49,081 nucleotides of DNA, taken from Magnetococcales bacterium. Lineage in GTDB: Bacteria > Pseudomonadota > Magnetococcia > Magnetococcales > UBA8363. The notes under the pieces were generated by a model that was not told where the DNA came from, did not search any database, and saw only the letters and a program-made list of their open reading frames with translations. The stretch spans positions 1 through 49,081 of the forward strand of contig JADGCV010000033.1 in NCBI GenBank assembly GCA_015228815.1, in the 5' to 3' direction. Below are positions 1-12,853 of this stretch, in pieces. Numbering within the stretch: position 1 is the first letter of the stretch; every line of letters starts with the position of its first letter. The position numbers were made by a program, and so were the translations under genes.

Positions 1-77
1 TGCCGATATCAAGACCGGACCGAAGGGACGCGCCATCGTGACCGGCGGGGAAGGAACGGCAACCCGTTGTATGGGAC
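1..77. repeat. 77-bp exact inverted copy of integrase segment at window edge
   Basis: Bases 1-77 are identical to the reverse complement of 4909-4985, inside the integrase gene. The identity stops exactly after base 77: the next base is a here, while the integrase counterpart is t. A match that begins at the first base of the window and has exactly a common assembler k-mer length suggests a contig-end overlap in an assembly graph. A real short inverted duplication cannot be excluded from sequence alone. Confidence 0.9.
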
Positions 78-1486
78 ACCCGGTTTTGCAAACGACGCTG
101 GTGATCCTCCATGCTGACGTAAAGAGCGTCTCCCCGCTCGGCCCACAACGAGCCGAGCGCATTTTGGCCGTAGGCGACAGACAGACCCAGGTGAAGCGCC
201 AGCCAGGACTTGCCGACCTTCGGCTTGCCCGCCAGGATGAAAACACCTTGCGGCAACAGGTCACGCACCGTCCAGGAAACCGGGTCGAAGTGCTGTGCCA
301 TCAGGTCCGACATGCTGAAGGTGGCTGGTGCTTTCTCCTGGTTGGCAGCCTGTTGGCTCGGCCCAGGATCGGCCTCCACTTTCCGCGCCTTGGAGATACA
401 CTCCTTGACCGCCTCCGACCCATGAAGCCGCGCTAAATCGTTGAAATCGTTGGCTCCATCTGGCCGATCCGGTCCGAAGTCCGGGACGGCCAACCGTGCG
501 CCGATGGCCCGTGCCGCTTCGGTGGCGAGCCTGTCGGGTTCCCCCGTGGTTTTATCCAGGTCGGCCAGGAGGACGATTCTTGCTTCCGGATCGTGCCTTC
601 TCATATTTTTTGCGACAGCCAGGAGGTTGCCATTCGAGAAGGTTGCCACCCCAATCGCTCCAGGAACGGCCTGCGCCGCGCTTAACACCGTGGCAACCCC
701 TTCCCCCACCGCGAAGACAAGCCCCGGCAAATCGCCCTCTGGAAGGACTTGTGTGGCCCAATACCCGCCCGCTTTCCGGCCCCCCGCCAGGGAAGACTTT
801 CGACCTTCACCGTCGATCATCTCGATGGAAGCCAAAACGCCATCCGCCTTGATCGGGACGACCAGGATCCGGTTACCTTGAAGCGGTCCGGACTTGCCCC
901 TCGGCGAGTAACCGATGATCCGCTTCAGTTCGGAAAGGGAAATTTCCTGCAAAGTTTGAGTGGAAGAGACGGATTTCCGAACCAGGTAAGGATTGTCGTC
1001 CGCCGCCGGGTCTGCTCCGTCCAAAATCAAACGAGCCATTTCGGCTGCCTGCCGGTGGCGGTCGGCATCTCCCTGGGGAAGGGCCGCTTTGCCCGGCCGC
1101 GCCCCGGTGATCGGGCGTAGTCTTTCGGCCTCGTTTCCGGCCCCACGCCACCCGACATTCCGCGCCATGCGGAAAAGGGTTTTGATCGTGATGCCGCCAT
1201 CTGGTTTGATCGAACGCCACACGTCGCGGGTATCCGCCGGGTTGTAGGACGCCCCATTGGAAGACCAGGAATCGAAAACTTGAAAGCCTTCGTCTCCAAG
1301 CCCGGCTTTCAGAGCCATGCCGATCCGCACCCACTCGTCCCGGTCAACATTTGGCGTCAAAGCGGATAAGGCGCTTTTGATTTCTTCCAGGGAAGATTTT
1401 TGATCGTGCTGTGTTTTTGCGGTAGTATGGGGCCTGAAATTGTTTTGATTGCCCGCTGCCCCCAGAGGGCTTTTTTGTGGGTTCAT
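1..1486 (-). CDS. Primase-helicase (PriCT-2 / Toprim / RecA-like ATPase), 3' end cut by window edge
   Basis: A continuous open frame runs from an ATG at 1486 to the window edge, about 495 codons with no stop. Residues about 35-115 look like a PriCT-2 domain (WVRIGMALKAG, then DVWRSIKPDGGITIKTLF). Residues about 255-355 form a Toprim domain, with the acidic motif in AVGEGVATVLSA and the D-x-D in LLADLD. After residue about 400 comes a RepA/AAA_25-type ATPase with Walker A in GKPKVGKSW and a Walker B-like ALYVSMED. Family knowledge: such proteins start replication of phages, satellites and integrative elements. Natural coding ends at base 78; the last 25 or so codons are read out of frame through the integrase copy at 1-77, so the true C-terminus lies elsewhere. 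The gene follows the AlpA-like gene by 11 bp in the same direction. Confidence 0.85.
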   Translation of the reverse strand, partial: MNPQKSPLGAAGNQNNFRPHTTAKTQHDQKSSLEEIKSALSALTPNVDRDEWVRIGMALKAGLGDEGFQVFDSWSSNGASYNPADTRDVWRSIKPDGGITIKTLFRMARNVGWRGAGNEAERLRPITGARPGKAALPQGDADRHRQAAEMARLILDGADPAADDNPYLVRKSVSSTQTLQEISLSELKRIIGYSPRGKSGPLQGNRILVVPIKADGVLASIEMIDGEGRKSSLAGGRKAGGYWATQVLPEGDLPGLVFAVGEGVATVLSAAQAVPGAIGVATFSNGNLLAVAKNMRRHDPEARIVLLADLDKTTGEPDRLATEAARAIGARLAVPDFGPDRPDGANDFNDLARLHGSEAVKECISKARKVEADPGPSQQAANQEKAPATFSMSDLMAQHFDPVSWTVRDLLPQGVFILAGKPKVGKSWLALHLGLSVAYGQNALGSLWAERGDALYVSMEDHQRRLQNRVSHTTGCRSFPAGHDGASLRSGLDIG

Positions 1487-2662: not shown

Positions 2663-2726
2663 AACCCGGCCAGGGGGTGAAGGATTCCCCTTTTTCCGCC
2701 GTCGCGGTAGACTGGGTGTCTCGTTA
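2663..2726. repeat. Diverged third copy of the island repeat, after higBA
   Basis: This segment shares ccggccagggggtgaa and the later ttttccg and gggtgt tracts with the two 82-bp repeats at 3354-3435 and 5094-5175, with small indels and substitutions. As in the copy at 3354-3435, the stop codon of the minus-strand antitoxin gene (tta, 2724-2726) sits at the repeat edge. Confidence 0.6.
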
Positions 2727-3011
2727 AGCGGTCAGCGCGCAGACATCCCGCTCTATCTCATTGCCGATCTTCTGTAACACCACGGAAAGGTCATACTGTG
2801 TCTGCATATTTAGCCAGAACTCCGGCGTTGTACCGAAAAACCGGGCCAGACGGATGGCGGTATCGGCAGTGATTCCACGCTGTCCGTGAATGATGGCCCC
2901 GATGCGCGTTGTTGGAACCCGCAAACGCATGGCCAGCGCATTGGCATTCAGATTGTGGGGAACCATAAATTCTTCACGCAGTACCTCCCCAGGATGAGTT
3001 TTGATTCTCAT
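2724..3011 (-). CDS. higA: HigA-family antitoxin (XRE HTH)
   Basis: A 95-residue protein typical of HigA antitoxins. It starts MRIKTHPGEVLREEFM, continues with an XRE helix-turn-helix at about residues 20-70 (ALAMRLRVPTTRIGAIIHGQ, RGITADTAIRLARFF) and has the family signature TPEFWLNMQTQYDL. It would neutralise HigB and repress its own operon. The start overlaps the higB stop in an ATGA (3008-3011), so translation is coupled. The toxin-first order is standard for HigBA. Confidence 0.93.
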   Translation of the reverse strand: MRIKTHPGEVLREEFMVPHNLNANALAMRLRVPTTRIGAIIHGQRGITADTAIRLARFFGTTPEFWLNMQTQYDLSVVLQKIGNEIERDVCALTA

Positions 3012-3298
3012 GGCTTACCTCCGTGGTAGTCCACAATCTCGACATTGAAGGCGTGGCCATCACGCCATTCGAAACAGATGCGGAATTGATCGTTGATGCG
3101 GATGCTGAACTGCCCTCGTCTATCCCCCTTCAGAGCCTCCAGGCGATTGTTCGGCGGTTGCCGCAAATCCTCCAGGGAGTGCGCAGAGGCCAACATGTCC
3201 AGCTTGCGCAACGCTACCTTGCGGACGGCTTCAAACCGTGCTACGTGATCGCCGTCGTTGAACTGCTCAGTCGGTTTGCCCCGGAAGCTCTTTATCAT
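3008..3298 (-). CDS. higB: HigB-family toxin (RelE superfamily mRNA interferase)
   Basis: A 96-residue toxin: MIKSFRGKPTEQFN at the start, a central LEALKGDRRGQFSIRINDQFR and FEWRDGHAFNVEIVDYH at the end match the HigB/plasmid-killer fold. RelE-superfamily toxins cleave mRNA at the ribosome. I chose the ATG at 3298 because HigB proteins begin MIKSF; an in-frame TTG five codons upstream is less likely. The gene overlaps higA by 4 bp. Bases 3299-3353 should contain the promoter, although I see no clear operator palindrome there. Confidence 0.92.
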   Translation of the reverse strand: MIKSFRGKPTEQFNDGDHVARFEAVRKVALRKLDMLASAHSLEDLRQPPNNRLEALKGDRRGQFSIRINDQFRICFEWRDGHAFNVEIVDYHGGKP

Positions 3299-3353
3299 AC
3301 GCTTACCGTACAACGCTGCTCAATCAACAGCAAGCGCAAACTGAATTCACCCT

Positions 3354-3435
3354 CGGCTTGCTTTCCGGCCAGGGGGTGAAAGGTGTCCCCTTTTCCGTTG
3401 GCCGACGTAGGCCGGGCGTTCGGTGGGCTTACCTC
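3354..3435. repeat. 82-bp direct repeat, copy A
   Basis: Identical to 5094-5175 except for one base (3422 g, 5162 a). Its interior can form a stem-loop with outer arms CGGCCA and TGGCCG around an inner GGGG/CCCC and AAAGG/CCTTT pairing. The minus-strand mqsA-like stop codon (3429-3431) lies inside the repeat end. The two copies flank the mqsRA-integrase block as direct repeats 1740 bp apart. Confidence 0.9.
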
Positions 3436-3869
3436 AAGGCAAGCGCCGGTTCGTGATCCATGACACGGGGTTCATCCCGCAGCAAAGCCAGTTGTCCGGG
3501 ATTGGCTTCCAGCAGTCGCAGCAGATTGGAAACGGCACGACTTACCAGAACGTCTCCCTGTTCATATTTGTGGAAGGCGTTGGGACCGCCACCGATCATC
3601 TGACTTGCCTTGCGTTGCGACAGCCCCAATTTTTCCCGAATGGCCCGAATGCGTGCAGGTTCAAGCAAACCCTCAGCGCGAGCCTTCAGGAGATTCAAGG
3701 CGCGGTCGGAAACGTTCATGTCCTTGCCGGAATGGACACTCTCACCGCATGCGCAATACCACCCTGGCAGGTCCAGCGAGATGGACTGCTCCTTGTAGCT
3801 CAACGCCACCGGGCGTGACGCTCTGGTCATGCTCTGTCCGCATTCGTGACATTTCATCAAGTCGTTCAT
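3429..3869 (-). CDS. mqsA: MqsA-like antitoxin (YgiT zinc finger plus XRE HTH)
   Basis: A 146-residue protein. The N-terminal zinc-binding half has CxxC pairs at KCHECG and YCACGE. The C-terminal HTH half starts near residue 75 (IRAIREKLGLSQRKASQMI, GGGPNAFHKYEQGD). This is the architecture of MqsA, which binds MqsR through its zinc domain and operator DNA through its HTH. The start overlaps the toxin stop by 4 bp (3866-3869). The stop codon lies inside the 82-bp repeat. The HTH is followed by a tail rich in Leu and Arg. Identification is strong at family level. Confidence 0.9.
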   Translation of the reverse strand: MNDLMKCHECGQSMTRASRPVALSYKEQSISLDLPGWYCACGESVHSGKDMNVSDRALNLLKARAEGLLEPARIRAIREKLGLSQRKASQMIGGGPNAFHKYEQGDVLVSRAVSNLLRLLEANPGQLALLRDEPRVMDHEPALALR

Positions 3870-4177
3870 TTGTTTCGCTCCTTGAAGGAGAGCAACCGGA
3901 ATTCCGTTACCACGTCGGCAGTGAATTTCAGGTAGACCACCACAGCGCCACGGGGAACATGGTAGACATCCTGCCAGGTCCGATAATCCGTGTGGGATGT
4001 CATGGATTTCACAAAATGTCTGCGCTTCATGGTCTGGATGGTGGCCACGATTTCATCCCGTCCGCATCCCATGGCCGCCGCCGTCCGCAAGGCGGTTCCG
4101 GTCACGCTCAAACGCCCCGCCATGGCGAATACCCTTTTGAAGGCATCCAAATCATAGGTGGGGGTTCGTTTGTCCAT
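3866..4177 (-). CDS. mqsR: MqsR-like toxin (mRNA interferase)
   Basis: A 103-residue protein closely matching the MqsR pattern: MDKRTPTYDLDAFKRV at the start, then MKRRHFVKSMTSHTDYRTWQ, DVYHVP, and the end VVTEFRLLSFKER. MqsR is a ribosome-independent RNase that cuts mRNA at GC-containing triplets. The toxin precedes the antitoxin, as is usual for this family. A perfect short palindrome lies 13-28 bp upstream of the start. The pair occupies most of the space between the two 82-bp repeats, next to the integrase, so it may stabilise the island. Confidence 0.92.
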   Translation of the reverse strand: MDKRTPTYDLDAFKRVFAMAGRLSVTGTALRTAAAMGCGRDEIVATIQTMKRRHFVKSMTSHTDYRTWQDVYHVPRGAVVVYLKFTADVVTEFRLLSFKERNK

Positions 4178-4210: not shown

Positions 4211-5074
4211 CTATAGGGGTTGCGCTTTTTTGATCAGCACTACATCGGCCTTGGGAGTGCCATTCAATGCGGCGGCAATCTGCCCGGAAATCTTGTCGGC
4301 GGCAATCTTGAGGGGATCGGCGGACAAGTGGGCATATCGGGCGGTCACGGTTGGGGTCTTATGGCCCAGCAATGCGCCCACGATAGGCAACCCCATGCCA
4401 GAGATTACCCCCACCGACGCGAACCCGTGGCGGGTGTCGTGAATGCGCACGTCGGACAACCCGGCCCGTTCCCGGATTTTGCGCCAGATACGCGGAAGCC
4501 CCACCAGGGATTGACCATCGACGGCACCGGGAAAGCAATACGAGTTCCCCTGGATGCGTGGCAGACTGGACAAAAGTTCCAAGGCTGCTGCTCCCAGGTG
4601 GACCACCTTGAATCCGGTCTTGGAGTCGGGCAACCGCAGGCATCCACGCTCGAAATCCACATGGGACCATTCCAGGGTCAAAACCTCCCCCCTCCGCATG
4701 CCGGTCAACAGCAACAACCGAAGCGATGCAATGGCAACCGGGTTCACTCCTTCTTGCTCCATCTCCTGCATGACCTCCCCCAAGCGGGTCAACTCTTCCC
4801 CGGTCAGGAACCGTTCCCGCCGTTGCCCGGCATATTTCCTTACCCCATGCACGGGGTTGTCCTCCCGCAAGCCGCGTTCCACGGCAAAGCTGAAGATGGC
4901 CCCCAGGAGTCCCATACAACGGGTTGCCGTTCCTTCCCCGCCGGTCACGATGGCGCGTCCCTTCGGTCCGGTCTTGATATCGGCAGCCGTCTTGCCCGCA
5001 GCCACGTCGATCATAAACCGTTGCACGTCGGCACGGGTGATTTGATCCATCCGCTTGCGCCCCATCAATGGCAC
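4211..5074 (-). CDS. Tyrosine recombinase/integrase, N-terminally shortened
   Basis: A 287-residue phage-type integrase with the full catalytic set: Arg in TGMRRGEVLTLEW, Lys in DSKTGFK, His-x-x-Arg in HDTRHGF, His in LLGHKTPT and Tyr in TARYAHL. Residues 1-95 give most of the core-binding domain (QITRADVQRFMIDVA). Relatives usually carry about 100 more N-terminal residues including an arm-binding domain. Here integrase-like coding (RRIARHIVPLMG) begins at about 5094, where the 82-bp repeat starts. The same frame stays open through the repeat to a stop near 5190 without family resemblance. GTG at 5074 is the annotated start; the protein may be impaired. It points away from the urea-transporter operon and marks the island's right border. 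Confidence 0.88.
   Translation of the reverse strand: MPLMGRKRMDQITRADVQRFMIDVAAGKTAADIKTGPKGRAIVTGGEGTATRCMGLLGAIFSFAVERGLREDNPVHGVRKYAGQRRERFLTGEELTRLGEVMQEMEQEGVNPVAIASLRLLLLTGMRRGEVLTLEWSHVDFERGCLRLPDSKTGFKVVHLGAAALELLSSLPRIQGNSYCFPGAVDGQSLVGLPRIWRKIRERAGLSDVRIHDTRHGFASVGVISGMGLPIVGALLGHKTPTVTARYAHLSADPLKIAADKISGQIAAALNGTPKADVVLIKKAQPL
4909..4985. repeat. Integrase segment shared in inverted orientation with the window start
   Basis: Reverse complement of bases 1-77, 77 of 77 identical. It lies in the core-binding domain region encoding the TGGEGTATRCMG stretch of the integrase. Confidence 0.9.
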
Positions 5075-5197: not shown

Positions 5198-7351
5198 TCA
5201 ATCGCCAATCTTTTTTTCCCACCCCACGATACCGTGGTCCGATTGCATGCCATGGCGGACGAGCGTTCCCTGCATGGTTTCCCGGGGGGTGACGAGGGAA
5301 AGTCGGAGCCACCCCAGGCTTTCCGACAGGTCGGCTTGGCCGTGACACGACCACAGGCTTTTTCCCATCCAGGTGACCCGATGTTCCACCCGTTGTTCCC
5401 AACAAAGACCGAGGGGCTGCCAGAGGCGGTCGTACAGGCTTTCTTCCTTGAGAAATCCCGGAAACAACCAGTTCAGGGTCCGAAGCCACCACGGCAGGGG
5501 CAACCAGTGGACGGGAATGGAATCGTGCCAATGAATCGCTTCCTCGCATAGCGGCGTCAGGGCAGTCGTCAGCAGCAGGGCGTCAAGGCGGGGGTCGCCC
5601 TTGTCACGTTGGTAGAAGGCAATCAGCGTATCGGTTTGGACAAAGGCGACACGAGTCCGTTGGTTGACGACAAGCCAGGTTTCACCGGCAAGATCGATCG
5701 CGACGGTCATCTTGAGTGGGGCATGACGCCCCGAAAAGGCATAGGTGAAGGAACGACCGACGGCACGGTACAGGGAATGGGCGAGCAGTGGGCCGGGGCG
5801 TGGATGTCCAACGGTGGTTCCTTCCGTGGGGATGTGGTCGAGGCTGTAGCAGGGACTTGGCTCCATGGGGATCAGGGTATGGGTCAGGTGGAAGGGTCGG
5901 GTGGGGTTGCCCAGCCAGGGGCCTGTCTGCACATGCATGTGGAGATGAGGTTGCACCGACCGGCCCGAGTTGCCGCATCGGGCCAGGATCTGGCCCGGGG
6001 TGACGGTCGTCTGGGGGCTGATGGTCAGGCTTCCCTGACGCAGGTGCGAAAGCAGCAGGTGATCGGTTCCCGACAGGGCGATGAGGATGAAATTGCCCCA
6101 ATTGTTGTTGGTGTCCATGGTCCCGGGAGGGGTATCGGGAAGGTCATCGCGGCAGGCGACGACCAGACCGGTCACCGGGGAACAAATGGCTGCGTTGAAG
6201 CAGTGATAATCGGTGCATTGCCGGCCATCCCCCCTGTAGGCCAAACCATCGACGACCTGATGAAAATCGAGGGCATGGCGCCATTCTCCCTGATGGGTAT
6301 GGGCGCCGTCGAATCCCTGGTAGATCTGCCAGGCACCAAAAAAAGGGAGTCGCAGGCCAATGCTCCCCTCGGCGACACCTCGGGCCTCGGCAAGGGCGGT
6401 GGACGCTGCCACCGCCTCGGGAATCCGCGGTGTATCGAGCCAGTAACGGCTCCAAGGTTCGCCTGAAATGGGGCTCAGGGCGACCATGATGAACCAGGTG
6501 GTCGCGACGAAAGGGAGCGACAGGGGCGGCAGTCCCAGGAAATAAAATATATTGAAGGCGGCAAGTGACAGGAGGCCGGCAATGGCCGCACCCATGCCCG
6601 CCACAAGAAAGGGTCGATTTCCGGGGCGGGCGAACACTCCTCCGGTCATCAGGGCTGTCAGCATGGCGGCGGTACTGGCGAGGGACAGCGGCAACGAATA
6701 GGGCGTCACGCCAAAAAGCGCAAGCTCCGTTCGGACGACGACATAAGCCGAAAGAATGATGAGAAACAGACGCCGCGAGGAGAGAAAAATAGCCAATCCT
6801 ACCAGGATTCCACCGACGGGAGTCGGAGAAAAATAGATCTGTCCCGTGGCGATGAGCCAGGAAAGAACCGGGGTGGGCAACCATTGGTAAAGCCAGAGAT
6901 CGACAGGATTGGCCGCAGGGGCAACGGCCCAGGGAAGGGCCAGGGCGCGACCGAAGGCATAGACGGGAAGGCCGGCGAGAAACAGGGGTGCGGACAGAAT
7001 CGGAAGTCCCTTGGGGATGCTGACCAGCGCATGGATCAATCGGCTCGCCAGCGTGGCCAGCAGACCGGAAAGGGTCGCCAGGGCGAAACTTTCCGGAGTC
7101 GCCGCAAAAAAAGTGCCGACCATCAATCCGAGGAGGACACCGTTGACCACATCCAGATCGTAGACCTGATTCGGGAGCGCCAATCCCTTGCGGCAGGACA
7201 GGCTGACGATGCCGCCCCAGAGGCCCAGGATTCCCACCGCCGGGTTGACGAGGGTCGCCGCAACCAGAAGCCAGTGGGCCTCGGGGGATCGGAAATAGAG
7301 AAACGAGCCGTAGGCCTTGAGGAGTGTGTGAAAAAAAGGTCCCAAGATCAC
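5198..7351 (-). CDS. Urea-transporter-like membrane protein fused to an M23 peptidase domain
   Basis: About 717 residues, starting at a GTG (7351) that overlaps the upstream stop as GTGA. The first 340 or so residues are very hydrophobic with about ten membrane segments. They resemble the bacterial UT urea-channel family (LLVAATLVNPAVGILGLWGG, and an internally repeated layout). Residues about 400-560 are an M23-type domain: RHALDFH, then WGNFILI, HLRQGSLTI and the HxH motif in PHLHMHV. The remaining 150 residues are unassigned. M23 enzymes are peptidoglycan endopeptidases, so the domain probably faces the periplasm. It is the last gene of the operon with PqqD, ATP-grasp and PLP-decarboxylase genes, which suggests export or handling of their product. 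The transported substrate is not known. Confidence 0.75.
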   Translation of the reverse strand: MILGPFFHTLLKAYGSFLYFRSPEAHWLLVAATLVNPAVGILGLWGGIVSLSCRKGLALPNQVYDLDVVNGVLLGLMVGTFFAATPESFALATLSGLLATLASRLIHALVSIPKGLPILSAPLFLAGLPVYAFGRALALPWAVAPAANPVDLWLYQWLPTPVLSWLIATGQIYFSPTPVGGILVGLAIFLSSRRLFLIILSAYVVVRTELALFGVTPYSLPLSLASTAAMLTALMTGGVFARPGNRPFLVAGMGAAIAGLLSLAAFNIFYFLGLPPLSLPFVATTWFIMVALSPISGEPWSRYWLDTPRIPEAVAASTALAEARGVAEGSIGLRLPFFGAWQIYQGFDGAHTHQGEWRHALDFHQVVDGLAYRGDGRQCTDYHCFNAAICSPVTGLVVACRDDLPDTPPGTMDTNNNWGNFILIALSGTDHLLLSHLRQGSLTISPQTTVTPGQILARCGNSGRSVQPHLHMHVQTGPWLGNPTRPFHLTHTLIPMEPSPCYSLDHIPTEGTTVGHPRPGPLLAHSLYRAVGRSFTYAFSGRHAPLKMTVAIDLAGETWLVVNQRTRVAFVQTDTLIAFYQRDKGDPRLDALLLTTALTPLCEEAIHWHDSIPVHWLPLPWWLRTLNWLFPGFLKEESLYDRLWQPLGLCWEQRVEHRVTWMGKSLWSCHGQADLSESLGWLRLSLVTPRETMQGTLVRHGMQSDHGIVGWEKKIGD

Positions 7352-8757
7352 TCTTTCGCGGGTTGGGGCACGGACGACCAGGGACCGGTGTTTGCGTTGA
7401 GGTGGTGGGGCATGCGTTCGTGTACGCACAGGGAGGCGAGCGTTTCGCCCTGGCGGATCACCTCGTGCGTTCCATGGGGACCGACCAGAATGATCGGTGG
7501 ACGCAGTTCGATGAATTGCAGCCATTGGGTGTTGTTGTAGGCCCCGACCGGATTGAAGACCAGACGGTCCCCGACCGCCAGTGGCGGAAGACTGACCAAT
7601 TGTCGCATGACATCGATGTTCATGCACAGGGGGCCGAACAAGACCGTTTCCGCAAGAGGGCCATCCTTTGGCCGGACCAGTCGTACCGGATGATGATACC
7701 ACAGGCCGGTCAACATCAGGTTGATGCCTGCATCCAGGATGACCCCGCGGCGACCATCGACAAGTCGCTTGGTGCCAACGACCGTGGCGACCAGGGACTG
7801 GGCATCATCGACCACCGCCCGTCCGCTTTCGAAAATCAGGAGCGGCTCTGGCCCCGATCGTCCTGCCAATCCCTGGTGCAATGCCGTTCCGATCGCTTCG
7901 GCGTATTCCTCGATCGGGGGAACCGCCTGTTCGGGGGGGGCATAGATGCCCTGGAGGGCGTTGCGTGAGGGAAAACCGCCGCCAATATCGAGCGACTGAA
8001 TGCGCGTCACGCCATCGGTTTCAACTTCCTTCATGAAGTCGGTCATCAGACGAACCTGCTGTCCGTAGGCCCGGGGGTCGAGAATGAAGGTTCCCAGGTG
8101 GTTGTGCAATCCGTTCAGTGTCAGGTGCCGGCTGCATCGGATCCGCACCGCCGCTTCATGGGCCTGGCCATTTTCCAGATTGAATCCGAATCGGCTCCAG
8201 GGTTCGGTATGACCGGTATTGAAGTTGAGCCGCAGCGTGACCGGGACCTTCCGACCGGTCTCCTGGGCAATTGTTTCGATCAGGGTCAACTCATCCAGAT
8301 GATCGACATGGATATGGGCCTCCTCGGCGATGGCCCGTTCCAGGATCGGACGCGGTTTGCAGGGACCGTTGAAAAGAATCCTCTCGCCGGGAACACCAAG
8401 AAGACGGGCCTTTTCATATTCCGAACGGGAGACCACCTCGGCCCAGGATCCTTCCTGGTGCAGGATGCGGCAAATGGCGCTCGTGATGTTGGTCTTGTAG
8501 GACCATCCATGCACGACATGGGAATGATGGCGTTCCAACGCCTTTCGGATGGTGCGGATGTTGTGCCGCAAACGTTGTTCGGAGGTGATGAAAAGCGGCG
8601 AGCCGTAGAGATTGACAAGGTCGTCGATTGGAATGCCGTCGATTTCCGCCCGCGCGGTCTCGCTGCGGCGATGACCGAATTTATTGACCGTTCCATGATG
8701 AAGGGGTTGAATCATGGGCGGTTCCCAGACGGGTGGGGTCGCTTCGGGTTTGTTCAT
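7348..8757 (-). CDS. Type III PLP-dependent decarboxylase (DapDC/ornithine-decarboxylase-like)
   Basis: A 469-residue fold-type III enzyme. It has a PLP lysine in HGWSYKTNITSAI, a histidine motif NGLHNHLGTF, the phosphate loop SLDIGGGFPSRN, ESGRAVVDDA matching the usual EPGR region, a catalytic Cys in FGPLCMNIDVM and the conserved GAYN near the end. The family includes diaminopimelate, ornithine and carboxynorspermidine decarboxylases and some amino-acid racemases. The substrate is probably an amino acid or its conjugate but cannot be read from these motifs. The gene sits 14 bp after the ATP-grasp gene and overlaps the transporter-peptidase start by 4 bp, so the product pair is likely made together. 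Confidence 0.85.
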   Translation of the reverse strand: MNKPEATPPVWEPPMIQPLHHGTVNKFGHRRSETARAEIDGIPIDDLVNLYGSPLFITSEQRLRHNIRTIRKALERHHSHVVHGWSYKTNITSAICRILHQEGSWAEVVSRSEYEKARLLGVPGERILFNGPCKPRPILERAIAEEAHIHVDHLDELTLIETIAQETGRKVPVTLRLNFNTGHTEPWSRFGFNLENGQAHEAAVRIRCSRHLTLNGLHNHLGTFILDPRAYGQQVRLMTDFMKEVETDGVTRIQSLDIGGGFPSRNALQGIYAPPEQAVPPIEEYAEAIGTALHQGLAGRSGPEPLLIFESGRAVVDDAQSLVATVVGTKRLVDGRRGVILDAGINLMLTGLWYHHPVRLVRPKDGPLAETVLFGPLCMNIDVMRQLVSLPPLAVGDRLVFNPVGAYNNTQWLQFIELRPPIILVGPHGTHEVIRQGETLASLCVHERMPHHLNANTGPWSSVPQPAKE

Positions 8758-8771
8758 GTCATGATGCTCGA

Positions 8772-9863
8772 TCAGGCTCGGGGGTGGCGCTGGGGGTGGG
8801 TGCCGGTGGTGGACATGGCGGCAAGTCGTTCCAGATCGACGATGACCTCCTGGGCGTGGCGGATGAACAAGGTACCGGTTCGGGGCGTTGGCGCGAATGG
8901 CAATCTTTCACCGGCCATCAACGACAGCAGTAAAGCTGGAAGATTGCGTTGGACGCCATGGCTGAGATAGATCCATGATGGAAAACGGGGGTTGAGTTCC
9001 ACCAGATACAGCCGTCCATCTTCGCCGCGAAGGGCTTCCACCTCCAGGGGACCCCGCCATGTCAGATGGGTGCTCAAGGTCTGCGCCATGGCTCGAAGTT
9101 CATCGTCATCGATGGTGATTCCGGCCCAGGCCTTGCCTTTGTCGGTAATCGCCCGTTTGCGCATCATCACCGGCGCCAACAGGGTTCCGGAATCGTCGCA
9201 AACCGCCGTCAGATTGATTTCGTGTCCCGGAACAAACTGTTGTACCAGGATCGGATATCCCCACTGACCGGCGATCCGGTGCGTGACCATCCGCGCCTCG
9301 GCGGGATGATGAACCACCTGGGCGTCATAATACAGTCCCTTGATCATCAAAGGAAAAGACCAGCCAGAATCCTGGCAGGAATCGAAAAAGCCGGGATCAT
9401 TGATCGCACGTGTTTCCGGAGTCGCCATACCCGTGGCTGCGCACAGGGAAGGGAGTCGATCCTTGCCACGCGCCGCCAGACTCCGGTGGCTGGGAAGAAG
9501 GGTTGCAATCCCCCAGGAGTCCAGGGCCGGCAGGAGGCGCTGAAAATTGGTCAATTCCGAATCAAGGCACGGGATGATGGCATCGATGGGGCAGAGGCCC
9601 TGGATCTCTTCGAGCCGGTCGCGCAGGGATTCCTCACCCATCGAGGGATAGGGTAGAAGATGGGATTGGTCACACGAATCATCATACAGACCGGCATCGA
9701 GCGCATCATACCCCAGGCCGATCAAACGACCGCGAAACCCGGAATATTCTCTCAGGCAGCGGGCGACCGCCATTCCCGGACCCGGATTGTCGGGGCGGGC
9801 ATTCATGCCGGTGATGGCTATGGTCCAGTGACGCCAGTCGGTGGCGCGATCTCCCGATTTCAT
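8772..9863 (-). CDS. ATP-grasp ligase (carboxylate-amine ligase type)
   Basis: A 363-residue protein of the CarB-like ATP-grasp superfamily. It has an N-terminal Rossmann-like segment (WTIAITGMNARPDNPG), a lysine-bearing segment (SFPLMIKGLYYDAQVV), a QQFVPGHEINLTAV strand and a metal-binding end EVEALRGEDGRLYLVELNPRF. These enzymes join a carboxylate to an amine through an acyl phosphate. The start overlaps the PqqD stop in ATGA (9860-9863). Together with the PLP decarboxylase it suggests assembly of a small amide-linked amino-acid derivative; the actual substrates are unknown. Confidence 0.85.
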   Translation of the reverse strand: MKSGDRATDWRHWTIAITGMNARPDNPGPGMAVARCLREYSGFRGRLIGLGYDALDAGLYDDSCDQSHLLPYPSMGEESLRDRLEEIQGLCPIDAIIPCLDSELTNFQRLLPALDSWGIATLLPSHRSLAARGKDRLPSLCAATGMATPETRAINDPGFFDSCQDSGWSFPLMIKGLYYDAQVVHHPAEARMVTHRIAGQWGYPILVQQFVPGHEINLTAVCDDSGTLLAPVMMRKRAITDKGKAWAGITIDDDELRAMAQTLSTHLTWRGPLEVEALRGEDGRLYLVELNPRFPSWIYLSHGVQRNLPALLLSLMAGERLPFAPTPRTGTLFIRHAQEVIVDLERLAAMSTTGTHPQRHPRA

Positions 9864-10135
9864 GCCAGATTCCGTGCCAATTGCCGGATGAAGCCTTCCA
9901 CCGACCCCAGGGCAACTTCACGGGCGACGCCGTAACTTCGTGACAGTGCCATGGCGGTATCCTCGGCGGTAGCTCCTCCCTGGAGAAGTTCCAGCGCCAT
10001 CAGTCCGGTAGCGTTGACGGTAAAGCTTTGGCCACTCTTCGGATCGAAAACGTAGCCGTTGCGGCTGATGGCCAGATTTTCCAATCGGACTGGATCCATG
10101 GGCGGCGCAAGGGTGGATGGACCGGGATTGAACAT
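9860..10135 (-). CDS. PqqD-family protein (RiPP-recognition-like)
   Basis: A 91-residue protein with the PqqD pattern: LENLAISRNGYVFDPKSGQSF, then VNATGLMALELLQGGATAEDTAMAL and a C-terminal helix SVEGFIRQLARNL. PqqD proteins bind peptide substrates and present them to modifying enzymes. Similar stand-alone members occur in HPr-rel-A systems. No radical-SAM enzyme and no obvious precursor peptide is next to it here. It is first in a four-gene operon with ATP-grasp, PLP-decarboxylase and transporter-peptidase genes. The start ATG at 10135 has only a weak ribosome site (gagaa). Confidence 0.8.
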   Translation of the reverse strand: MFNPGPSTLAPPMDPVRLENLAISRNGYVFDPKSGQSFTVNATGLMALELLQGGATAEDTAMALSRSYGVAREVALGSVEGFIRQLARNLA

Positions 10136-10255: not shown

Positions 10256-11215
10256 TTAGTGACAAACGTCGTGCGGCGAGTCGGCCTTGAAGATGTTGCC
10301 AACCCAGGCGGTCAATTCGTCCAGAGTGGCAGTGGCCACTTTCCGATGGATGGATTCCGGCACCGATCCGAAACGTGCCTGAAGTAATTGGAGTAGCGCC
10401 TCGGCCTTGCCTTCCTGTTTGCCTTCCTGTTTGCCTTCCTGTTTGCCTTCCTGTCGGCCTTTCTGCGCGCCCTCGATCAACCCTGCGCCATAGGTGGATT
10501 CCACCATGCTTGCCTGGAAGTGCAGATCCTCCTGATAGCGTTCGTAGGCCAGCCGTTCCGCCTCTGGCAGGTTCAGGAGGTCGAACAGCTCCTTGGCTTT
10601 GAGTAGACCCTGCGCTGAAAACTCATCCCGGATGTCACCCGTCTTGAGAAAGTAGACCCACTCGTCCAGACTGGTCCGTGCCACTTCGTTAAAGCGGTTG
10701 ACCTTGATCAGATAGAACTCCGGGAAAATTTCTTGCACGGTTTTACGGCGGAACAAACTTTTCTGCCCTTCATTGAGTTGCAGTTCGTCCTGGAGGTGCA
10801 TACCGTGGAACGAAGTCGTGCCATGATAAATATAATCCATACCTTGGCCAAGATCGAAATACAAGATACTGATTGATATGATTCTTGGAATTTTTGCATA
10901 GGCATCGCCAGCCTGCAAATGCTCCGTGACCGCCTTGGACGAAGCATAGACAAGACGCTGCAGGTAGTCGTGTTCCCGTTCGAATTGCAGCTCGATCAGG
11001 ATCAGTTCACCCTGGCTGGTCCTGACTTTCATATCGACGCGATTGTACTTATCGAGCGGGCCATCCTGATTGCTTTCACTTTCGAGGATTTCGAGGATTT
11101 GCACGTCGGTCATGAGCAACTCGCACAACAGCCCTTCCAGCACGTCAAAATTGGCCTTGCTGCGCAACAACCGTTTCAAGGCCCAGTCGAAGGTGATCAG
11201 ACGGCGTTGTTTCAT
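10256..11215 (-). CDS. Rpn-family recombination-promoting nuclease / putative transposase-like
   Basis: A 319-residue member of the Rpn/PD-(D/E)XK family. It starts RRLITFDWALKRLLRSKANF, followed by LEGLLCELL. The nuclease core appears as KYNRVDMKVRT, then ELILIELQFERE (D...E-x-Q/K), and SISILYFDLGQG follows. Family members promote RecA-independent recombination, nick DNA and spread horizontally, and some may act in phage defence. Residues about 254-273 are a run of GKQE repeats encoded by four identical 12-bp units, so length may vary between strains. It sits alone between the PqqD operon and the TPR gene. Confidence 0.88.
   Translation of the reverse strand: MKQRRLITFDWALKRLLRSKANFDVLEGLLCELLMTDVQILEILESESNQDGPLDKYNRVDMKVRTSQGELILIELQFEREHDYLQRLVYASSKAVTEHLQAGDAYAKIPRIISISILYFDLGQGMDYIYHGTTSFHGMHLQDELQLNEGQKSLFRRKTVQEIFPEFYLIKVNRFNEVARTSLDEWVYFLKTGDIRDEFSAQGLLKAKELFDLLNLPEAERLAYERYQEDLHFQASMVESTYGAGLIEGAQKGRQEGKQEGKQEGKQEGKAEALLQLLQARFGSVPESIHRKVATATLDELTAWVGNIFKADSPHDVCH
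10407..10454. repeat. Four tandem 12-bp units inside the Rpn gene
   Basis: The unit TTGCCTTCCTGT is repeated four times without change (10407-10454), with a diverged fifth following. On the coding strand each unit gives four residues of the GKQE type. The unit length keeps the frame, so slippage would change linker length without breaking the gene. Confidence 0.95.
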
Positions 11216-11271: not shown

Positions 11272-11934
11272 TCATTTTCCGTTAAGGTATGCGTTTGCCT
11301 CGATATGGTTGGGAATCCGGTTGAGCACGTTCAGATAGGCCTCCCGTGCCTGTTTGGGCTGATTGAGCCACAGGTGTGCCCGGGCCATGTAGACCAGGGC
11401 GTTGGTGTCGGAGGGGTAATGGGTTGCCAGGGTGGTGGCGTGTGTCAGAAGGTCGTTCCAGAGTTTTTGTCCCTCGTCGGCGACAAGAAGACGTTGCAGA
11501 GCGGTCTGGTTGAGGTGAGACAAGGTGAGGACCGACTCGGCGAAGGCGCCTGCCTCACGATGGCGTTGCTGGGCCAGAAGGGGCAGGGTGATGCCCAACA
11601 GCGCATCGATGGAGCGGCTGTTGGCGCGGATCGCCAGACGGTAGAAATGGATGGCATCATTGTGTTTTCCCTGAAGATAATGCAACCATCCCAGGCGCAG
11701 GAGAACCAGCTCCCGATCACTGCCCCGGGTATCCTGGAGGGGCAGCAGTATTTCGGCGGCATCGGCAAATCGGGAAGCGGTTTCCAGGGTGTAGGACTTG
11801 GCGAAAATATTTGCGGTGGTTACCCCTTCACGGGAACCTCCGGATGGCGTCGTGGCGGCTCCATGGGCCTCCGGGAACTGCCATGAGAAAAGAAAACCGA
11901 CAAGAGCCGTGACGAGGATCAGGGATCGGATCAT
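11272..11934 (-). CDS. Secreted TPR-repeat protein
   Basis: A 220-residue protein. The first 25-30 residues (MIRSLILVTALVGFLFSW, then EAHGA) are a signal peptide, which decides the start at 11934. The rest is made of helical TPR-like pairs: ASRFADAAEILLPL, LVLLRLGWLHYLQGKHNDA, IHFYRLAIRANSRSIDALLG, and a C-terminal pair LVYMARAHLWLNQPKQAREAYLNVL. It should act in the periplasm as a scaffold. The gene begins 4 bp after the stop of the outer-membrane barrel gene, so the two are co-transcribed and may form one export or envelope unit. Confidence 0.8.
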   Translation of the reverse strand: MIRSLILVTALVGFLFSWQFPEAHGAATTPSGGSREGVTTANIFAKSYTLETASRFADAAEILLPLQDTRGSDRELVLLRLGWLHYLQGKHNDAIHFYRLAIRANSRSIDALLGITLPLLAQQRHREAGAFAESVLTLSHLNQTALQRLLVADEGQKLWNDLLTHATTLATHYPSDTNALVYMARAHLWLNQPKQAREAYLNVLNRIPNHIEANAYLNGK

Positions 11935-11938
11935 GGAA

Positions 11939-12853
11939 TCACCAGTTGAGGGAATAGGAAAGATAGAGGGAGTTGCTGCTGTATTTATCGGCGATCGATT
12001 TGTTTTCGTAGGCTTCGTGCCCCCCCATGAGAAGGAGGCGCGCCTGAGTGCCGATGCGCCATTCCAGTCCCAGCGATGCCCCTCCCTGATGGGCATCGGC
12101 CAGATTATAGACCGAAGCCCCATCAAGATCGACACCGAAGATTTTCTCTCCCACCATGCCGCCAACTTTCAGGTTGTCGAGTCGCAGAAGGTTGTCCGGG
12201 CCAAACCAGTGATTCCATTTGATGTCCAGGGCCTGGGCATCTTCGAGACCCTGGGCGCGGGTGGGGTTGGAGACATCGATCAAGGTGGGTCTCAGCGAGA
12301 TCCAGTCCAATTTTTCGTTGAAGGCCATGCCAATTGCGGGTGATACCTGCCAAACTTCAAGGTCTCCGTAATAATCGCTGAAGGCAACGGCGGCTTCTAC
12401 ATGCCAGGTCTGATCGAACGGTGTGAAGGAAATGACGGGGGCTGCGACCTTGACATCATCGGTGTCATGGGTTGCGTCGTCATTGTCGATCAGATGTCCA
12501 TCGAGGCGGACGCCCAGGCGACCATGCCACAAGTCGGGCGTCAGGTTGATGCGGGCGCTGGCGAAGAACGCATCCTGCTCGATGTCCTGGGTCGGGGAGA
12601 CGAATGTGACCGAGGTATGATTGTATCCCAGGGTCATGCCGTAGCGTTCGAACCAGTCGGTGGAGAAAAACAATCCTTCACTGAGGAAGCGTTCCCGCAT
12701 ACTCGAACCCGAGTAATCACCCGCCACTCCCTGGACCGTGAATCCGGGATACCAGTTTTTTTCGCCGGAGTTTCCTTCCCTCGCCATCAATGACCATGAG
12801 GAAAGAAAACAGAAGAGGGTCAGGGTGACCGGGAAGCATGAAGGATGGCGCAC
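11939..12853 (-). CDS. Outer-membrane beta-barrel protein (unassigned)
   Basis: A 304-residue protein with a short signal peptide (PVTLTLFCFLSSWSLMA) and then alternating amphipathic strands rich in Tyr, Trp, Gly and Asp. It ends in NSLYLSYSLNW; a terminal aromatic residue is the usual barrel-insertion signal. Length and strand pattern suggest about 12-14 strands. I cannot assign a substrate. It is first in a two-gene unit with the periplasmic TPR protein, an arrangement reminiscent of TPR-plus-porin export pairs for polysaccharides, but without a synthase gene nearby. Confidence 0.7.
   Translation of the reverse strand: MRHPSCFPVTLTLFCFLSSWSLMAREGNSGEKNWYPGFTVQGVAGDYSGSSMRERFLSEGLFFSTDWFERYGMTLGYNHTSVTFVSPTQDIEQDAFFASARINLTPDLWHGRLGVRLDGHLIDNDDATHDTDDVKVAAPVISFTPFDQTWHVEAAVAFSDYYGDLEVWQVSPAIGMAFNEKLDWISLRPTLIDVSNPTRAQGLEDAQALDIKWNHWFGPDNLLRLDNLKVGGMVGEKIFGVDLDGASVYNLADAHQGGASLGLEWRIGTQARLLLMGGHEAYENKSIADKYSSNSLYLSYSLNW

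Follow-up and report, generated by a model that had tools for sequence, protein, structure and literature searches.

A widespread gene cassette of PqqD, ATP-grasp, decarboxylase and urea-transporter/M23 proteins with a possible role in amino-acid amide conjugate metabolism

What could a bacterium make with a PqqD-like protein, an ATP-grasp ligase, a pyridoxal phosphate (PLP)-dependent decarboxylase and a membrane channel joined to a peptidase domain? The question is raised by four minus-strand genes in a 49,081-nucleotide stretch of the genome of a Magnetococcales bacterium (contig JADGCV010000033.1 of assembly GCA_015228815.1; hereafter, the window). An earlier note on this DNA had described them as an operon for a small amide derived from an amino acid or a peptide, perhaps linked to the cell wall. 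Its gene calls are correct (Table 1): an ATGA overlap joins the PqqD and ATP-grasp genes, 14 bp separate the latter from the gene of the alanine-racemase-fold (fold-III) decarboxylase, here called DEC, and a GTGA overlap joins DEC to the fusion of a urea transporter (UT) domain with an M23 domain (UT/M23). The four family assignments also hold, since every Pfam match exceeds its family cut-off. The UT/M23 gene starts at the GTG at 7351, a 717-residue form that is backed by homologues; a longer open reading frame (ORF), extending to 7702, was discarded as a mechanical artefact. The reading that we favour, with somewhat less than even confidence, is a conserved, horizontally mobile pathway, free of nonribosomal peptide synthetases, in which an amino-acid amide conjugate is made, decarboxylated and moved or released across the envelope.

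The gene set is a real conserved operon and not a chance arrangement. A scan with DEC gave 80 loci, with one genome per species, in which gene order was followed by tblastn with the window proteins. The loci come from Magnetococcales, Alpha-, Beta-, Gamma- and Zetaproteobacteria, Anaeromyxobacter, Desulfobulbaceae, a Nitrospirae bin, Obscuribacterales/Melainabacteria and Eremiobacterota. The order and strand of the PqqD, ATP-grasp, DEC and UT/M23 genes are kept in most of them, across about six phyla (carriers include Magnetococcia, Accumulibacter, Zetaproteobacteria and non-photosynthetic Cyanobacteriota), which disposes of the possibility, raised in the earlier note, that the set is adjacent in this genome only. 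The PqqD copies of Accumulibacter were missed by tblastn and recovered as a diverged small-ORF family. Intergenic spacing lies mostly between 4-bp overlaps and a few tens of bases, and most loci show translational coupling of PqqD to ATP-grasp. The co-occurrence proposed earlier as a check was followed in a sample of 398 genomes of the phylum: DEC is present in 38 and the ATP-grasp in 36, every one of these a DEC genome, and the long UT/M23 protein is found in 36, of which 33 are shared with DEC, always on the same contig and with gaps of 13-721 bp. Fisher p values for this co-occurrence are inflated by the relatedness of the genomes, so weight was placed instead on the cross-phylum spread and on adjacency. 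In the DEC tree, rows from Myxococcota, Nitrospirota and Thermodesulfobacteriota fall among those of Pseudomonadota, and this mixed placement suggests that the cassette has been horizontally transferred, with the usual caution as some genomes are bins. No close DEC was found in a plasmid collection, and the UT-only and M23-only matches in other genomes (L094-L100) lacked the cassette on inspection, L096 being by eye the ordinary urea transporter of a urease operon. In line with the earlier note, which knew of no such pathway, none with this set appears to be described: literature text searches, with subscription journals mostly outside their scope, returned no paper describing it.

The closest solved protein to DEC is FigC, an N-citrylornithine decarboxylase (7kh2, E 7.7e-52). 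In FigC, a methionine takes the place of the acidic residue beside the catalytic cysteine, and the Thr, Thr and Tyr of the specificity helix line the pocket for the citryl conjugate (PMC7857480). The DEC pocket (T350, W353, Y354 and C378-M379-N380-I381-D382) resembles it: Met379, Thr350 and Tyr354 are invariant, T350 and Y354 correspond to FigC T327 and Y331, Trp353 stands at the second Thr, and the position of FigC His357 is an Ile. The fold-III decarboxylase motifs are complete, as first noticed, with K88 (catalytic Lys), H220 (stacking His), G259-261, E310, R313 and C378 invariant in the alignment, but they are not of the diaminopimelate or ornithine decarboxylase type. DEC lacks the RPxxY and C-E-S-G-D motifs of diaminopimelate decarboxylases and has TGLWYHHP and CMNID, where the window genome's own LysA has RPALYNAYH and CESGD. 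The identification of DEC as LysA was rejected (NCBIfam lysA gives 214 bits against a cut-off of 297.9, and 517 bits for the genome's own LysA), as was its identification as FslC/FigC itself (NCBIfam FslC, 208.5 bits against a cut-off of 500). Judged from its sequence, DEC is not LysA and not an ornithine decarboxylase either, and the FigC-like pocket together with the loss of the LysA motifs points to an amide-conjugated amino acid as its likely substrate. These results also bear on a role in polyamine or lysine primary metabolism, in which DEC would produce lysine or a diamine while the UT domain carried urea. This role would agree with the family-level annotations (lysA-like and UT) and with the Orn/Lys/Arg decarboxylase of the sister cassette described below, but it is quite improbable given the missed lysA cut-off, the separate LysA of the genome, the replacement of the acidic substrate-binding residues in DEC and the properties of the channel considered further on.

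The nearest described route is the FigA/FigC (FslA/FslC) rhizoferrin pathway of Francisella, in which a ligase joins an acid to a side-chain amine and an alanine-racemase-fold decarboxylase then acts on the conjugate; DEC has the C-M...D, T and Y pocket residues in common with FigC. The cassette differs in that its ligase is an ATP-grasp and not a nonribosomal-peptide-synthetase-independent siderophore (NIS) synthetase, in the lack of siderophore genes, and in the added PqqD, UT/M23, outer-membrane barrel (OMP) and tetratricopeptide repeat (TPR) proteins. A carboxylate siderophore pathway, with the ATP-grasp in place of the NIS synthetase and DEC as an N-citrylornithine-type decarboxylase, would explain why DEC is nearest to the FigC of rhizoferrin synthesis and shares its pocket residues. 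However, the window genome has no IucA/IucC-type NIS synthetase, the partner of FigC, and no TonB-system, major facilitator superfamily exporter or iron genes were seen among the recurrent neighbours of the cassette. Apart from these loci, a DEC homologue (51% identical) was observed at L091:7128-13689. Its operon lacks ATP-grasp and UT/M23 but encodes a TIR-domain protein, a WD40 protein and what is by eye a MoxR-type ATPase, and it resembles a conflict-type system into which a DEC-type decarboxylase has been recruited. None of the four window proteins has a PADLOC match, and an anti-phage defence system was rejected for the cassette.

The ATP-grasp protein is a divergent carbamoyl-phosphate-synthase-like ligase, with profile matches to 2pn1 and to the large chain of carbamoyl-phosphate synthase and matches below the cut-off to the NCBIfam PRK12767 models. 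Its ligase residues K134 and K175 (ATP-binding) and E276, E289 and N291 (metal) are invariant. A ligase of this superfamily is found with a DEC-like enzyme in butirosin biosynthesis, where BtrJ is an ATP-grasp ligase and BtrK an alanine-racemase-fold decarboxylase that acts on a conjugated amino acid; the BtrK structure (2j66) is among the solved matches to DEC. In contrast to the cassette, the butirosin route needs an acyl-carrier protein, which PqqD is not, having no conserved attachment residue, and the genes of the antibiotic cluster are absent. The strongest hint that ligation and decarboxylation would be the core chemistry comes from a sister cassette in two Magnetococcales genomes without DEC (L089 and L090), in which UT/M23 and TPR genes stand with those of a fold-I Orn/Lys/Arg decarboxylase and a PRK06524 ATP-grasp. 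The same decarboxylase lies beside a PRK06524 ATP-grasp in three further genomes (L101-L103). These clusters resemble the cassette in that a decarboxylase adjoins an ATP-grasp, but the decarboxylase fold is unrelated and the ATP-grasp belongs to a different subfamily. With the channel kept, unrelated enzymes would thus fill these two roles, suggesting that decarboxylase and ATP-grasp represent the preserved chemistry. In L101-L103, the third protein of the three-gene cluster has roughly 325 aa and is C45-type hydrolase-like by eye. The amide-forming proposal of the earlier note fares well here, amide formation and decarboxylation being the best reading.

PqqD brings in a different possibility. 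This protein has a known recognition-element fold, and it could show a precursor peptide to the ATP-grasp, with DEC decarboxylating the peptide, in the biosynthesis of a ribosomally synthesized and post-translationally modified peptide. The translational coupling of PqqD and ATP-grasp would suit such a role, and graspetides provide a precedent for peptide modification by ATP-grasp enzymes (PMC8939145). However, when 950 small ORFs flanking the 80 loci were clustered, only chance families and the diverged PqqD of Accumulibacter emerged, so that no precursor peptide is conserved beside the cassette, in the flanks as distinct from the distal genome; for the window, its absence had already been remarked. 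Moreover, the ATP-grasp is carbamoyl-phosphate-synthase-like, and in ten named loci (L063:6087-6902, L035, L041, L043, L045, L050, L061, L071, L073 and L078) PqqD forms the C-terminal domain of a longer protein whose N-terminal region is of TetR type, an uncommon context for a PqqD domain (Pfam TetR_N is above the cut-off in L063 and below it in L035). The peptide-presenting role first given to PqqD is not borne out by these data, and a ribosomal peptide pathway is unlikely; the lack of a precursor family and the TetR-type fusions suggest that the partner bound by PqqD may instead be the product, an enzyme or a small conjugate. A carrier function (LysW- or ACP-like) was rejected, as neither an attachment serine nor a C-terminal residue is conserved in PqqD. 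The small PqqD-domain protein recalls the HPr-rel-A and pyrroloquinoline quinone systems, but the cassette PqqD is under the cut-off of TIGR04353 PqqD_rel_X (29.2 bits against 35) and no HprK-related kinase, radical SAM enzyme or precursor peptide is recurrent among its neighbours. The genome holds a second PqqD domain on another contig (G000:C22:52183-52377), inside a 730-aa open frame.

The AlphaFold2 model of UT/M23 (mean predicted local distance difference test, pLDDT, 93.8) matches urea transporters (3k3g and human UTs) and LytM/M23 proteins in Foldseek. Its channel part has the urea transporter fold with LPxxxxPF motifs and shares a full-length alignment and LPxxSxPF motifs with dvUT and human UT-A/UT-B. 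Unlike these transporters, it is fused to the M23 and C-terminal domains, it is far under the cut-off of the urea_trans_yut equivalog (46.5 bits against 274.6), and its slot positions 16 and 171 are S/A/T and S/A/W/G, not Gln/Glu. These Gln and Glu residues have their roles in the urea slot of urea transporters, and their replacement suggests that the permeant is probably not urea; the low score and the lost slot residues are also at odds with the primary metabolic role considered above.

The side of the membrane on which the M23 domain lies matters for its function. The alignment of the UT profile with human UT-A/UT-B runs over the full length and includes the C-terminal xxPE after the last membrane helix, and the termini of these human proteins, including the C-terminus of UT-B, are cytoplasmic. 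The positive-inside rule, with the side of each loop assigned manually on the basis of the alignment and the model helices, agrees in 59/59 sequences (9.4 Lys/Arg per sequence in inside loops against 1.3 in outside loops), and the agreement persists if neither terminus is counted. No strong transmembrane segment follows the UT part (window maximum 1.3; above 1.6 in only 6/59 sequences). Taken together, these features predict that the M23 and C-terminal domains are probably cytoplasmic, weakening the wall or cross-peptide reading of the earlier note, which needs a periplasmic M23. According to that reading, a periplasmic M23 would cut peptidoglycan peptides and the pathway would make or recycle a wall-derived or wall-attached amide. 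It is consistent with the putative zinc/catalytic residues of M23 (Table 1), which are invariant in the 59 sequences, with M23/LytM enzymes as the closest solved relatives, and with the exported OMP and TPR proteins linked to the cassette. In view of the predicted topology, which lacks the extracytoplasmic domain of a peptidoglycan hydrolase, we regard it as unlikely, if a little less so than the ribosomal peptide pathway. The cassette M23 shares the fold and the H/D/H/HxH residue set with DipM, ShyA and LytM, but differs from them in its predicted cytoplasmic, channel-tethered position. For the C-terminal domain there was no Pfam match and none above the cut-offs used.

Clustering of neighbours extends the operon beyond the four genes first described, which were rightly seen as an operon, albeit an incomplete one that missed the linked OMP, TPR and kinase/regulator genes. 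The OMP and TPR genes belong to the operon (numbers of loci in Table 1); they lie upstream of PqqD in the window, L003 and L059 and downstream of UT/M23 in most other lineages. OMP, a single-copy gene in the window genome, matches no Pfam family above the cut-off and no NCBIfam family. Its predicted model (pLDDT 89.1; 14 strands by our own count) matches the small-solute barrels CymA, OmpG and FadL in Foldseek, and its match to a TonB receptor family is sub-threshold. Since this barrel resembles small, unplugged-type ones rather than TonB receptors and there is no NIS synthetase, the siderophore reading was set aside as very doubtful. Histidine kinase/response regulator ORFs make up 39/163 nearest neighbours against 13/204 distant ones, and they often lie directly 3' of UT/M23 where OMP/TPR are absent.

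In the pathway that we tentatively favour, the ATP-grasp would phosphorylate a carboxylate and couple it to the amine of a (probably basic) amino acid, and DEC would then strip the alpha-carboxyl from the conjugate, in the manner of FigC acting on N-citrylornithine and of BtrK on carrier-bound glutamate. The M23 domain, at the cytoplasmic mouth of the UT channel, would hydrolyse an amide in the conjugate; the channel would carry the small product over the inner membrane, and the TPR protein and the 14-strand OMP would complete the route. PqqD would serve as a binding module for substrate, enzyme or product, becoming part of a TetR-type regulator where fused, and in lineages without OMP/TPR, control of the cassette may fall to the histidine kinase/response regulator next to it. 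The support is comparative (linkage, conservation, families, pocket residues, predicted topology, fusions and alternative partners), and from it we infer the chemical steps and the direction of transport. A more novel proposal is that of a new type of biosynthesis-coupled exporter, in which a cytoplasm-facing M23 trims the conjugate delivered to the UT pore, and PqqD or TetR-PqqD reads the conjugate and controls its supply; this is possible, though rather unlikely, and if true M23 would act on a cytosolic small molecule and not on peptidoglycan.

Several observations weigh against the favoured pathway. The ATP-grasp of the cassette, which reaches no NCBIfam cut-off, is too divergent for substrate prediction. 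PqqD, ATP-grasp and DEC are kept without UT/M23 in the Magnetococcales L005, L007, G057 and G161, so the channel is not always required, and about half of the loci lack OMP/TPR next to the cassette. Free amino acids are the normal substrates of fold-I decarboxylases, and the order of steps may therefore be reversed in the sister cassette. M23 enzymes are normally extracytoplasmic, so the predicted cytoplasmic topology could be wrong; moreover, H353, the first zinc ligand, sits 9 residues before D362, where LytM/M23 enzymes have the usual HxxxD spacing of 4. Every part of the cassette has a known fold, and it is their combination and the predicted topology that are new to us. The intact cassette, present in about six phyla and with no described product found, points to an overlooked metabolite of widespread role; an M23 peptidase predicted to be cytoplasmic and a PqqD joined to a transcriptional regulator, in a setting other than peptide modification, would be its surprises. 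Between them, the sister cassette and the DEC pocket limit the chemistry enough for assays to begin.

Table 1. Features of the cassette and linked genes in the window
Feature	Position	Strand	Details
PqqD-like protein	9860..10135	-	91 aa, stand-alone here; Pfam PF05402 40.5 bits
ATP-grasp ligase	8772..9863	-	363 aa; Pfam ATPgrasp_Ter 33.5 bits
DEC, alanine-racemase-fold (fold-III) PLP decarboxylase	7348..8757	-	469 aa; Orn_Arg_deC_N 112.6 bits, Orn_DAP_Arg_deC 47.6 bits
UT/M23 fusion	5198..7351	-	717 aa; Pfam UT 83.6 bits, Peptidase_M23 31.2 bits
UT channel domain of UT/M23	6437..7351	-	residues 1-305; N- and C-termini predicted cytoplasmic
M23 domain of UT/M23	5912..6349	-	residues 335-480; invariant H353, D362, H436, H469, H471
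C-terminal mostly beta domain of UT/M23	5201..5893	-	residues 487-717; invariant P600, W608, D610, W651
OMP, 14-strand outer-membrane barrel	11939..12853	-	linked in 29 loci; predicted model
Secreted TPR protein	11272..11934	-	about 220 aa, ATG at 11934; linked in 34 loci; TPR Pfam families
Rpn-family recombination-promoting nuclease (PDDEXK_2)	10256..11215	-	between TPR and PqqD genes

In the window, the TPR and PqqD genes are split by the Rpn-type PDDEXK gene, and they are directly adjacent in L003 and L059. The Rpn-type gene holds a 12-bp tandem repeat at about 10395-10474. Beside the 3' end of the operon, two toxin-antitoxin-like pairs were recognized by eye at 2724-4177, one HigBA-like (2724-3313) and the other MqsRA-like (3429-4177), and they are adjoined by a tyrosine recombinase (4211-5074). 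This recombinase has the peptide TGGEGTATRCMG in common with an ORF near the start of the window (38-436), suggesting that the latter could be a second, broken recombinase copy.

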